Positions 40,339-51,879 of a stretch of DNA of 64,000 bases are shown one piece after another. A model generated the notes under the pieces. That model was not told where the DNA came from and did no database searches. It saw only the letters and a program-made list of their open reading frames with translations. The position numbers and the translations under genes are program-made. This DNA is from Anaerolineales bacterium (GTDB lineage Bacteria > Chloroflexota > Anaerolineae > Anaerolineales > UBA11579), in the NCBI GenBank assembly GCA_025808555.1, contig CP075526.1, positions 1,380,712-1,444,711 on the forward strand, given 5' to 3'. How positions within the stretch are numbered: position 1 is the first letter of the stretch; each line of letters begins with the position of its first letter.

Positions 40339-41844
<1,506 letters not shown>

Positions 41845-42009
41845 CTGGAGCATTGAGACCCTTCCAGCATCCTTGTGGTGCAGAGGGAGTTCTCCACTCT
41901 CCACATCAGGCGAACACATACTATGTGACGCCAAGTCCCACTGCGGTGGTGGGGCGAAACCGCCAACCCATACTTCTCACAGATGGGTCGGCAAGCGCAA
42001 GTCTTCATT

Positions 42010-42042
42010 CTTCTTATCACTATTCAGCGGTTAAGTGCCGGC
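42010..42042 (+). other. Right arm of the pre-16S processing stem
   Basis: Complements 40236-40268 (see the left arm), placing the pre-16S cleavage sites between mature 16S and tRNA-Ile. Confidence 0.85.
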
Positions 42043-42130
42043 CATACTAAACAGCGCGGAAAAGCGTCGCGAAGCGTCAGCTGAGCAGCTTTTCCAGGCG
42101 CAACGAAGCAGCTTGCTGCGAGTTGCGCAA

Positions 42131-42204
42131 GGGCCTGTAGCTCAGTTGGTTAGAGCGCTGTGCTGATAACGCAGAGGTCAGAGGTTCGAATCCTCTCAGG
42201 CCCA
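42131..42204 (+). tRNA. tRNA-Ile (anticodon GAT)
   Basis: A 74-base cloverleaf in the 16S-23S spacer: acceptor gggcctg/caggccc, anticodon loop ctGATaa, T-arm gaggttcgaatcctc. Position and identity are the common ones for bacterial rRNA operons. CCA not encoded. Confidence 0.97.
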
Positions 42205-42223
42205 CTCTACCGGCCAGGGGCCC

Positions 42224-42296
<73 letters not shown>

Positions 42297-42314
42297 CTCT
42301 TCTGGTGGGGCGCC

Positions 42315-42343
42315 TTCACAATCGAAGGCGGTGCAGGTATAAT
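42315..42343 (+). promoter_or_regulatory. Candidate internal promoter in the 16S-23S spacer
   Basis: ttcaca (42315-42320) and a perfect tataat (42338-42343) are 17 bases apart. It could boost 23S-5S transcription or drive a short RNA ending at the hairpin at 42442. Confidence 0.45.
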
Positions 42344-42441
42344 GCAGTTCGATGCAACAAGAACGGAGAGCACTTCTGGTAGTTGAGTTGGTGGTTTCGT
42401 AATCCAAATAAAAAGTCGTAACGCAAAAGGCTAGTCTTTAC

Positions 42442-42464
42442 GGGCCCGGCGTTGCGCCGGGCCC
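42442..42464 (+). terminator. Strong GC-rich hairpin in the spacer, possible terminator or processing element
   Basis: gggcccggcg (42442-42451) pairs perfectly with cgccgggccc (42455-42464) around a ttg loop; ttctgtct follows, only a weak T-run. Full termination here would cut off 23S, so partial termination or processing is more likely. Confidence 0.4.
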
Positions 42465-42640
42465 TTCTGTCTAAGGTTCCCGAATTAACAAGTAAAAGTG
42501 TGTGTGGATGGCCAACCTGGCGCCCTTGAATAGGGATCCAGGCCGGCTATTGACGCCGGCATCAGCGGGTGCGTCTTACAACCTTTGAGTTGTAGGGCAA
42601 GCCTAAGGCGAGCAGAACAACGCTCGTGTGCACTTTACAA

Positions 42641-42656
42641 ACTGAATAATGATCCT
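42641..42656 (+). other. Left arm of the pre-23S processing stem
   Basis: Pairs with 45801-45816 over 16 bases with one G-T pair, bracketing the 23S gene. Confidence 0.8.
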
Positions 42657-42787
42657 TAAAGCATCATCAAATGAAACAAATCAAACAACATGGGTCGTAT
42701 CAAACGTAAAACGCTCCCCTTGCGGGAACGTTTCGGTTTGATTTGCCCTTGTTGCGGAAAATTTTCGATTTCTCCACATTACCATAT

Positions 42788-45757
<2,970 letters not shown>

Positions 45758-45800
45758 GTAGTGTGGAGAACTCGAAGATTTTCCGTGCAGCACCTAATTT

Positions 45801-45816
45801 AGGGTCATTATTCAGT
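45801..45816 (+). other. Right arm of the pre-23S processing stem
   Basis: Pairs with 42641-42656; lies 43 bases after mature 23S and 21 bases before 5S. Confidence 0.8.
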
Positions 45817-45837
45817 CATCAGACTTGTGAAATAGTC

Positions 45838-45955
45838 TCTTGGTGATCTCTGCAACGAGGGTACACCCGGTCCCATCTCGAACCCGGTAGTTAAGCTCGT
45901 TAGCGCCGATGGTACTTGGGGGGCAGCCCCCTGGGAGAGTAGGTCATTGCCAAGG
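45838..45955 (+). rRNA. rrf: 5S ribosomal RNA
   Basis: About 118 bases. Helix I is formed by tcttggtgat and attgccaagg; the conserved cccggtcccatctcgaaccc lies at 45866-45885, followed by gggagagtaggt. It follows 23S directly in the operon. Confidence 0.95.
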
Positions 45956-50118: not shown

Positions 50119-50130
50119 ACGGCCATAAAC

Positions 50131-50159
50131 AACAGCGCCGGCGAAATGCCGGCGCTGTT
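50131..50159 (-). terminator. Hairpin ending the acetyltransferase transcript
   Basis: aacagcgccggc (50131-50142) pairs with gccggcgctgtt (50148-50159) around gaaat. A weak T-rich tail follows on the minus strand. It lies 24 bases after the acetyltransferase stop and upstream of the next minus-strand gene. Confidence 0.65.
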
Positions 50160-50182
50160 GTGTTGGTTTTGTGTGCAGTTTT

Positions 50183-51199
50183 CTAGTTGCTTATGTCGGT
50201 GGTCATCAACTCCTTCCCAGATCTCAGTTCCTTTTCGTAGCGGTCGTGGCGGCGCACTTCGCGCATGCCCGCCCGCTCATACAGGCGCACCGCGCCGGTC
50301 AGGCTGCCGGCGTCCACATCCAGCTCAGCCCGCATCCAGCCGCGCTCGTAGAACTTGCCGAAGGCGTGCTGAAGCAGCGCCAAGCCCAGGCCGTGCTTGC
50401 GCCAGGGGCGGCGCACACCCAGAATGCTTATCCAGCCCAGCTGGCCTTCTCCATGCGGTTTCTTACGGCCAACCAGATAACCAGCGACTTCATCGCCATG
50501 CATGGCGATGAACCACAGATCGGGGTCAAACTCAGAGCCTTCTTCCACCATCAGGTGGCGGAAGCGTTTAAGACCGGCTTCGAACCCTTCGTCCACATGG
50601 CCAAAGTGATCAGAGAATGCTTCGTCGTGCGCTTTGTAAACACCCGCCAGATCGCGCTCAACTTCGAACGGGCGCAACTCAATGCCTTCCGGCCATGTAG
50701 GGGCTGGCGGTGTGGCAGCAAAGTCTACGCCCATTTCAAACACATGGCGGGTCACCTTGAAGCCGCGTGAAAGCAGCAGCTCATGCTGGGCCGGGATGTT
50801 GGCGATGGCATGCAAGCCGATGGCCACGCGTAGCTCCGCCGGCACACGTGCCAGCGCATCCTTGCAGCGCTCGATCGCCCAGTCCAGCAGCTTGGCCTGG
50901 GCAGGGGATCCCACCAGTTCCGGCAGTATGCGCTGGAAGATGTACGGGTTCACAGGCACCTCATTCCAGGCCAGTGCCTCCGCATAGCCCAACATCTCGC
51001 CACTCGGCGAGATCAGCGCACGAATGTCCCGCTCCAGATCGATCCCAGGCGTCTTCCAGAATCCCAGCACTTCATCGGCAGTGTCATCTTCCAGCCCGGC
51101 AAACACTTTCGAAAACTGGTTGATGACATGTGTCACTGCCTCAGCATCTTCAGTGGTTACTGAGCGCAGTGAAAAATCGTCAAATTCTTGTGTAGCCAT
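50183..51199 (-). CDS. Two-domain GNAT N-acetyltransferase
   Basis: A 338-residue protein with two GNAT folds. The N-terminal one (residues ~1-155) is divergent (SLRSVTTEDAEAVTHVINQF, GYAEALAW); the C-terminal one (~165-330) is typical, with IELRPFEVERDLAGVYKAHD, GWISILGVRRPWRKHGLGLA (acetyl-CoA loop), ELDVDAGSLTGAVRLYERAG. The layout resembles MshD (mycothiol synthase) and other double GNATs, but no mycothiol genes are nearby, so the substrate is open. The ATG has aggagaag upstream. Upstream on the same strand lie two strong terminators and a 33-codon ORF, so expression may depend on read-through. Confidence 0.88.
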   Translation of the reverse strand: MATQEFDDFSLRSVTTEDAEAVTHVINQFSKVFAGLEDDTADEVLGFWKTPGIDLERDIRALISPSGEMLGYAEALAWNEVPVNPYIFQRILPELVGSPAQAKLLDWAIERCKDALARVPAELRVAIGLHAIANIPAQHELLLSRGFKVTRHVFEMGVDFAATPPAPTWPEGIELRPFEVERDLAGVYKAHDEAFSDHFGHVDEGFEAGLKRFRHLMVEEGSEFDPDLWFIAMHGDEVAGYLVGRKKPHGEGQLGWISILGVRRPWRKHGLGLALLQHAFGKFYERGWMRAELDVDAGSLTGAVRLYERAGMREVRRHDRYEKELRSGKELMTTDISN

Positions 51200-51224
51200 T
51201 TTCTTCTCCTGATCAAAAAAACAA

Positions 51225-51252
51225 AAGACCGCAAGGGTTTGCCCGCGGTCTT
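51225..51252 (-). terminator. Tandem terminator 2, immediately before the acetyltransferase
   Basis: On the minus strand aagaccgc and gcggtctt form an 8-bp stem, followed by ttttg and a run of seven T (51214-51220). The acetyltransferase ribosome binding site begins only a few bases after the T-run. Confidence 0.85.
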
Positions 51253-51261
51253 AAACAAAAA

Positions 51262-51288
51262 GGCCGCAGGGCTGTGCGCCGTGCGGCC
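51262..51288 (-). terminator. Tandem terminator 1, after the 33-codon ORF
   Basis: On the minus strand ggccgca and tgcggcc form a 7-bp GC stem with a GC-rich loop region, followed by tttttgttt. It lies 22 bases after the small ORF's stop codon. Confidence 0.8.
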
Positions 51289-51309
51289 GTTCACCAAAAT
51301 AGATGAGCT

Positions 51310-51411
51310 TTACTGGCCGGAAACAGGCGCACTACGCCAAGGCAGAGCGAAACCGCCGGCCTTGGAAGCCGGGGACTGCTTGGGGTCAATGGGAGTGAAC
51401 AGAAATTTCAC
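51310..51411 (-). CDS. Candidate 33-residue small protein or leader peptide
   Basis: A short ORF of 33 codons, GTG to TAA, beginning MKFLFTPIDPKQSPASKAGG and ending FALPWRSAPVSGQ. It has a good ribosome binding site (ttaggaga, about 6 bases before the GTG), a promoter-like TTGACG-18-TACACT upstream, and two intrinsic terminators downstream, so it has every mark of a transcription unit. No family is recognised. It has no membrane helix and no Cys or His; it is Pro/Ala/Ser/Lys-rich with one Trp. It may be a leader peptide controlling the acetyltransferase or an independent small protein. Too short to be called by length-based methods. Confidence 0.55.
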   Translation of the reverse strand: MKFLFTPIDPKQSPASKAGGFALPWRSAPVSGQ

Positions 51412-51431
51412 GCCTGTCTCCTAATTGCAGC

Positions 51432-51461
51432 AGTGTACACCAGCATCGACTCCTGCGTCAA
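51432..51461 (-). promoter_or_regulatory. Promoter of the 33-codon ORF
   Basis: On the minus strand TTGACG (51461-51456) and TACACT (51437-51432) are separated by 18 bases; transcription would start about 14 bases before the GTG. Confidence 0.55.
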
Positions 51462-51473
51462 GGGCGCAAAGCG

Positions 51474-51479
51474 TATAAT
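51474..51479 (+). promoter_or_regulatory. -10 box (tataat) 7 bases before the small membrane-protein gene
   Basis: A perfect tataat followed by 7 bases and the ATG at 51487. It decides this start over one 54 bases upstream and suggests a leaderless mRNA. It is divergent from the promoter at 51432-51461. Confidence 0.6.
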
Positions 51480-51486
51480 CACGCAG

Positions 51487-51879
51487 ATGAACAAAGCAGG
51501 CACTCCGTCTCCGTTTGCTTTTCTGCCCACCACGATCTTGCTGTTGCTCTTCGGCTGGGGCGGCCTGGGCTTGCTGCTTACCAGCACGCAGCCCAACCTG
51601 GTGCCGCGCTGGCTCTTCTTCTTCCTCGTCGCTATCGCCTTCACCGGTTTGGGGCTTCCGGTTGTTTCCTTCCTGAATTACCGCTTTCCAAGCGACCCGC
51701 CGGCACGGGTTAATGTCATCGTGCGCCAGGGGCTTTGGGTGGGTGTGTACGCGGCCACCCTGGCCTGGCTGCAGTTTGGGCGTGTGCTCAATGGAGCCTT
51801 GCTGGTTTTCTTAGCCCTGGCCTTCCTTGCCATCGAATGGTTCCTGCGTCTGCGCGAGCGCAGCCGCTGGGCGCCATAG
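51487..51879 (+). CDS. Small integral membrane protein, unknown function
   Basis: A 130-residue protein with four hydrophobic helices (TTILLLLFGWGGLGLLLTST; WLFFFLVAIAFTGLGLPVVS; GLWVGVYAATLAWLQFG; ALLVFLALAFLAIEWFL) and a basic C-terminus (RLRERSRW). The family is not recognised. It precedes the squalene/phytoene-synthase-like gene by 28 bases, though that gene has its own -10 box. Confidence 0.7.
   Translation: MNKAGTPSPFAFLPTTILLLLFGWGGLGLLLTSTQPNLVPRWLFFFLVAIAFTGLGLPVVSFLNYRFPSDPPARVNVIVRQGLWVGVYAATLAWLQFGRVLNGALLVFLALAFLAIEWFLRLRERSRWAP

Follow-up and report, generated by a model that had tools for sequence, protein, structure and literature searches.

A probable ribosome-mediated attenuator family ahead of resistance-type genes in Anaerolineales

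Control of antibiotic resistance by leader peptides is known mainly from Firmicutes and Actinobacteria. In the bmrB/bmrCD system of Bacillus subtilis, drugs that target the 50S subunit have been shown by experiment to increase read-through into the genes of a multidrug ABC transporter (PMC4191407). For the uORF of whiB7/wblC in Actinobacteria, a review describes that full translation leads to the terminator and disturbed translation to the antiterminator, giving a broad drug response (PMC11550727). Leader ORFs also precede ARE ABC-F genes (vmlR, cplR, vga(A), msrD), and several drugs likely stall ribosomes there at the start codon (PMC12121999). The main text of a study of uORF motifs in 50 bacterial genomes names neither Anaerolinea nor Chloroflexi (PMC11109978), and we found no paper in the open-access literature that describes the leaders reported here. 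We describe a hitherto uncatalogued leader family with a known type of mechanism. Comparative evidence indicates that it is real and functional and, since it precedes drug exporters, ribosome-protection proteins and acetyltransferases, it probably serves to switch on defences when ribosomes are stalled by antibiotics. Its reference member lies in a stretch of 64,000 nucleotides from an Anaerolineales bacterium (contig CP075526.1), hereafter the window.

The leader locus in the window and in close relatives

An earlier note, made from the DNA letters, had read a complete transcription unit on the minus strand: promoter, ribosome binding site and 33-codon ORF, followed by a pair of intrinsic terminators and then by an acetyltransferase gene for which it saw no other promoter. 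This observation is confirmed at 51199-51461, where the following parts are found:

51432..51461, minus strand: sigma-70 type promoter of the leader transcript, with TTGACG at 51461-51456, TACACT at 51437-51432 and an 18-nt spacer; 9/12 consensus matches
51422-51418, minus strand: Shine-Dalgarno sequence AGGAG of the leader ORF
51409..51422, minus strand: segment 1, covering the Shine-Dalgarno sequence and the start codon, AGGAGACAGGCGTG, with complementarity to the end of the ORF
51310..51411, minus strand: leader ORF of 33 codons, from GTG at 51411 to TAA at 51310, MKFLFTPIDPKQSPASKAGGFALPWRSAPVSGQ
51325..51342, minus strand: 18-nt signature CCTTGGCGTAGTGCGCCT, encoding P-W-R-S-A-P, with synonymous sites fixed in its codons
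51315..51336, minus strand: segment 2, the putative antiterminator strand at the ORF end, CGTAGTGCGCCTGTTTCCGGCC
51262..51288, minus strand: terminator hairpin 1 (segments 3 and 4), T-run at 51261-51257
51272..51290, minus strand: segment 3, 5' arm and loop of terminator 1, pairs with segment 2
51225..51252, minus strand: terminator hairpin 2 (segments 5 and 6), 11 pairs and a T-rich tail, T-run TTGTTTTTTT below 51225
51241..51254, minus strand: segment 5, 5' arm of terminator 2, able to pair with segment 4
51210-51206, minus strand: Shine-Dalgarno sequence of the acetyltransferase gene, ATG at 51199
50183..51199, minus strand: putatively controlled gene, a two-domain GNAT acetyltransferase of 338 aa (Pfam Acetyltransf_1, 2e-12; PDB 3tt2, a GNAT, 2.4e-51)

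Segment 4 is the 3' arm of terminator 1, so that the terminators are the pairings 3:4 and 5:6; the hairpins start 22 and 58 nt past the ORF stop. A simple terminator scan lists the second one alone and missed hairpin 1 because its loop is large, while terminator 1 is plain in the sequence by inspection. The promoter scan, which returned 2 sites in 4 kb against 1.2 expected, found no other promoter ahead of the GNAT gene. The leader RNA of 218 nt folds far better than its dinucleotide shuffles (z -4.9). On the plus strand, a divergent 148-codon ORF at 51433-51879 is membrane-protein-like and had no Pfam match; its listed start overlaps the leader promoter, and its true start is probably an ATG near 51487.

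A candidate assignment of the GNAT as mycothiol synthase MshD was rejected (40.6 bits, cut-off 163), and a role in drug resistance for this particular protein is a guess. Between its gene and a downstream aldo/keto reductase gene lies a perfect 15-bp GC-rich hairpin (50129-50161), probably a terminator, and a complete rRNA operon (16S, two tRNAs, 23S, 5S) is located upstream of the region at 40339-45955. Sister genera carry tandem arrays of 2-4 diverged two-domain GNAT copies (G014:C142, G011:C7, G022:C15, G012:C21; L057-L059, L066). The window's own genome holds no second copy of the leader, and neither a plasmid search with the window leader nor PADLOC gave a match.

The same GNAT is found at 74-87% protein identity in four public Anaerolineales MAGs and at 62% in a fifth genome, and all these relatives (87-62% identity) have the leader ORF in frame and at the same position before it. 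Promoter, ORF and both terminators are retained in 5/5 aligned loci, including TTGACG and GTGTACACT. The five-way alignment shows hardly any change in the promoter hexamers, in terminator 1 or in the last part of the ORF, while the linker between ORF and terminator and the spacer upstream of the GNAT gene drift. Each part of the locus could singly be due to chance; it is the conservation in relatives that settles the matter in favour of real parts. The earlier note had suggested a search for synonymous-biased change, and this came out in favour of the ORF: the frame is kept, and codons 2-20 changed mostly at synonymous positions, with 8 synonymous and 1 non-synonymous differences between the window and locus L006 and 7 and 5 towards L004. 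Towards the 62% relative the counts are 12 and 17 (pS 0.84, pN 0.40). The ORF is thus selected as coding sequence, with purifying selection on codons 2-20.

A leader family across the order

A peptide profile search, first over 400 genomes of the order and later over 400 of the phylum, recovered 48 leaders with a terminator after them, 36 of them non-redundant. The family peptides end in G-x3-[LVIM]-P-x-R-x-A-P-x2-4-stop. More distant GNAT relatives have a leader of the same kind with another N-terminus and the end G-x3-L/V/M-P-x-R-x-A-P. Between families the N-terminal two thirds of the peptide become unrecognisable, while geometry and pairings stay; within the motif P, R, A and P show little or no change, whereas the neighbouring residues vary. 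This conservation extends to the codons. Among the 36 non-redundant peptide-selected leaders, the first motif proline is always CCT (36/36), a codon that makes up 17% of the proline codons in downstream genes, the second is CCT in 35/36, the alanine is GCG in 34/34 (background 30%) and the serine is AGT in 28/28. Since these loci were found by peptide, codon choice was not biased by the search. Fixation at synonymous sites means that some of the amino-acid conservation may be a by-product of RNA pairing.

An 18-nt DNA signature derived from the profile-found leaders, CCTTNKCGKANTGCGCCT, is present in 126/400 genomes of the order; its reversed control is present in 3. In the phylum outside the order its frequency does not exceed chance (7 genomes, against 6 for the reversed control), and 0/7 have a complete unit, defined as a leader ORF whose stop closely follows the motif, plus one or more terminators. 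By this definition 124 of the 143 signature matches are complete. The geometry of the profile-found leaders is constant: the motif lies 2-4 codons ahead of the stop in 48/48 and the first T-run 44-59 nt past it. In 71 of 76 non-redundant leaders TTGAC precedes the start codon, mostly by 60-75 nt (reversed string: 3). The second terminator is detectable in about half of the units only. A degenerate pattern of the terminator-1 core, GGCGCANNNGCC, gave just two unrelated matches in 301 genomes; the family's terminators differ too much in sequence for it to serve as a search key.

The next gene could be read in 121 units. It encodes an MsbA/multidrug-type ABC exporter in 45, an ABC ATPase of DrrA subfamily type in 22, GNATs of two kinds in 19 and an ABC-F protein in 12; other genes follow in 5. 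In the remaining 18 it encodes a member of a protein family of 150-200 aa (first gene after leaders L149, L092, L094, L095 and L102, for example) with the pattern ..YRVDYLN..LYV.G.LP..YSR.AKR.. and no Pfam or NCBIfam match. In the units checked, a RimJ/L-type GNAT usually comes next. Exporters, ATPases, ABC-F proteins and GNATs are the usual company of antibiotic-induced leaders elsewhere. By gene type, these leaders are thus associated with resistance-type genes, as are antibiotic-inducible attenuators of the bmrB and ARE ABC-F type; resistance itself is suggested by the kind of gene.

Alternative pairings and the proposed switch

Segments were paired with their own and with other units' partners, permuted within classes of downstream gene, a procedure that removes relatedness incompletely. 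In this cognate-partner test two pairings stand out over 76 non-redundant units: that of the ribosome-binding region with the ORF end (1:2, z -7.0) and that of the ORF end with the 5' arm and loop of terminator 1 (2:3, z -7.3). The third, between the 3' arm of terminator 1 and the 5' arm of terminator 2 (4:5), reaches z -4.3 over the 39 units with a second terminator and is weaker evidence, because terminators duplicated in tandem would pair likewise. The decoys 1:3 (z -1.1), 2:4 (z -0.8) and 2:5 failed the test. In the window the 1:2 duplex has about 12 bp and the 2:3 duplex -25.9 kcal/mol, and in other units a change in segment 2 goes along with a matching one in the terminator-1 loop (CGTAATGCG with GTGTTAC in L156; CGGAGTGCG with GCACTCC in L094). 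Comparative sequence thus supports three alternative pairings, 1:2, 2:3 and 4:5.

Three features of a ribosome-mediated attenuator are found together here: a short upstream ORF with conserved frame, ribosome binding site and synonymous-biased change, an intrinsic terminator between this ORF and the gene, and an apparently mutually exclusive antiterminator that involves the ORF, as indicated by the 1:2 and 2:3 tests and the covarying examples. We therefore favour, with a probability of about 0.82, a leader that acts as a ribosome-mediated transcription attenuator sensing ribosomes stalled early in it. A ribosome translating the 33-codon leader to its end would cover segment 2, so that terminator 1 and then terminator 2 would form and RNA polymerase would stop ahead of the acetyltransferase gene. 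Many ribosome-targeting drugs hold ribosomes at the start of a leader or early within it. A ribosome held there would cover segment 1, so that segment 2 would be free to capture segment 3. Segment 4, released from hairpin 1, could then base-pair with segment 5, which would disarm both terminators together and let the gene be transcribed. If the leader is not translated, segment 1 would compete for segment 2 and the default would lean to termination. While the translated ORF, its parts, the three pairings and the company of resistance-type genes are borne out by comparison among relatives, we infer that drugs are the signal, which way the switch turns, when it acts and that it has a domino action on terminator 2.

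Equilibrium folding to the decision point nearly always favours terminator 1 (0.95 for naked RNA); in the window, the value falls only when the ribosome stalls on one of the first four codons. Since the terminator wins at equilibrium, antitermination would have to be kinetic, taking place during transcription; equilibrium folding is thus uninformative on the switch and was replaced by folding of truncated transcripts. When a ribosome footprint was masked on transcripts truncated in the terminator-1 loop, a ribosome on the first codons gave a mean 2:3 pairing of 0.75, as compared with 0.57 in naked RNA; one in mid-leader gave 0.53-0.65 and one on the last nine codons about 0. These model averages suggest that stalling at or soon after the start codon should open the switch and completed translation close it. 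For the window leader, 2:3 wins in the truncated-transcript model only when the ribosome stalls at codons 1-5 or at about codons 19-22.

Other readings have to be weighed against this one. The earlier note had left the choice between peptide-mediated attenuation and a standalone small protein; the former is strongly supported, the latter is not. The transcription unit is complete and the peptide appears to be under purifying selection, as a small protein with its own terminators and merely incidental read-through into the GNAT gene would have it. However, the N-terminal two thirds of this protein would be unrecognisable between families in which geometry and pairings persist, the unit recurs ahead of unrelated resistance-type genes, and the promoter scan left the GNAT gene without another promoter, so that we give this reading hardly any credence. 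Fixation of the 18-nt signature at the nucleotide level might point instead to an RNA element that senses a metabolite or protein and contains the ORF by chance. This is highly improbable, as no conserved aptamer is seen beyond ORF and terminators, frame and stop position are strictly kept, and Rfam had no match in 51180-51480 up to E 1 nor in ten family loci at the gathering score. Attenuation as in trp or ilv, where pauses at codons for a scarce amino acid expose the antiterminator, would use the same RNA logic and leaders of this typical length; it is very unlikely, since no run of a single amino acid is conserved among the leaders and the genes behind them encode transporters, ABC-F proteins and GNATs rather than biosynthesis enzymes.

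An arrest peptide is a more serious alternative, albeit an unlikely one. P-x-R-x-A-P, with its nearly invariant P, R, A and P amid variable neighbours, would stall its own ribosome, as RAPP motifs do at the peptidyl transferase centre (PMC10951233), and would act either as a clock that covers segment 2 and keeps the switch off or as the sensor itself. The RAPP core is absent, however, RNA pairing alone could conserve R-x-A-P since the motif codons are synonymously fixed, and a stall at the motif would cover segment 2 and thereby favour termination. 

A bolder version of the preferred reading, which we put forward tentatively and consider doubtful, is a clade-wide drug-sensing switch in which the ORF end has three jobs, as peptide code, partner of the start region and partner of the terminator, and the tandem terminators form a coupled domino, one antitermination event disarming both. 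In it, the P-x-R-x-A-P end may also delay ribosomes at the stop codon and so keep the switch off as long as no drug stalls them further upstream.

Comparison with described systems

The family is a large uncatalogued one in an uncultivated Chloroflexota lineage with almost no genetics. Its DNA signature predicts which genes of unknown function may belong to a ribosome-stress response, including the protein family without a domain match. It also offers a compact model of a translated sequence that would be constrained at once by its peptide and by two competing RNA pairings, and a model for asking whether tandem terminators can work as one unit.

Like the BmrB leader, the Anaerolineales leader combines a small translated ORF, competing stem-loops and an intrinsic terminator (PMC4191407). 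BmrB, however, is a single locus with a 53-codon ORF whose terminator lies inside the coding sequence, and it has neither the P-x-R-x-A-P end nor tandem terminators past the stop, whereas the present family is clade-wide and precedes several types of gene. With the whiB7/wblC uORF it would share a choice between terminator and antiterminator that is set by leader translation. This likeness is one of logic, and that attenuator governs a transcription factor, while the Anaerolineales leaders stand directly before resistance-type genes. The leaders of vmlR, cplR, vga(A) and msrD likewise place an expression-controlling ORF ahead of an ABC-F gene, with other peptides; at msrD the stalled ribosome itself unwinds the terminator (PMC10314930), where the Anaerolineales leader has a conserved antiterminator strand at its ORF end. 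Arginine, alanine and proline near the C-terminal end of a regulatory peptide are also seen in the RAPP arrest peptides ApcA, ApdA and ApdP (PMC10951233). Membership in that group was rejected: the core is R-[SINT]-A-P-x, not R-A-P-P or R-A-P-G, and the leaders do not precede protein-localization genes. Thus, what sets the Anaerolineales family apart is the combination of a shared peptide end, a codon-fixed signature, the conserved pairing of start region and ORF end, and frequent tandem terminators.
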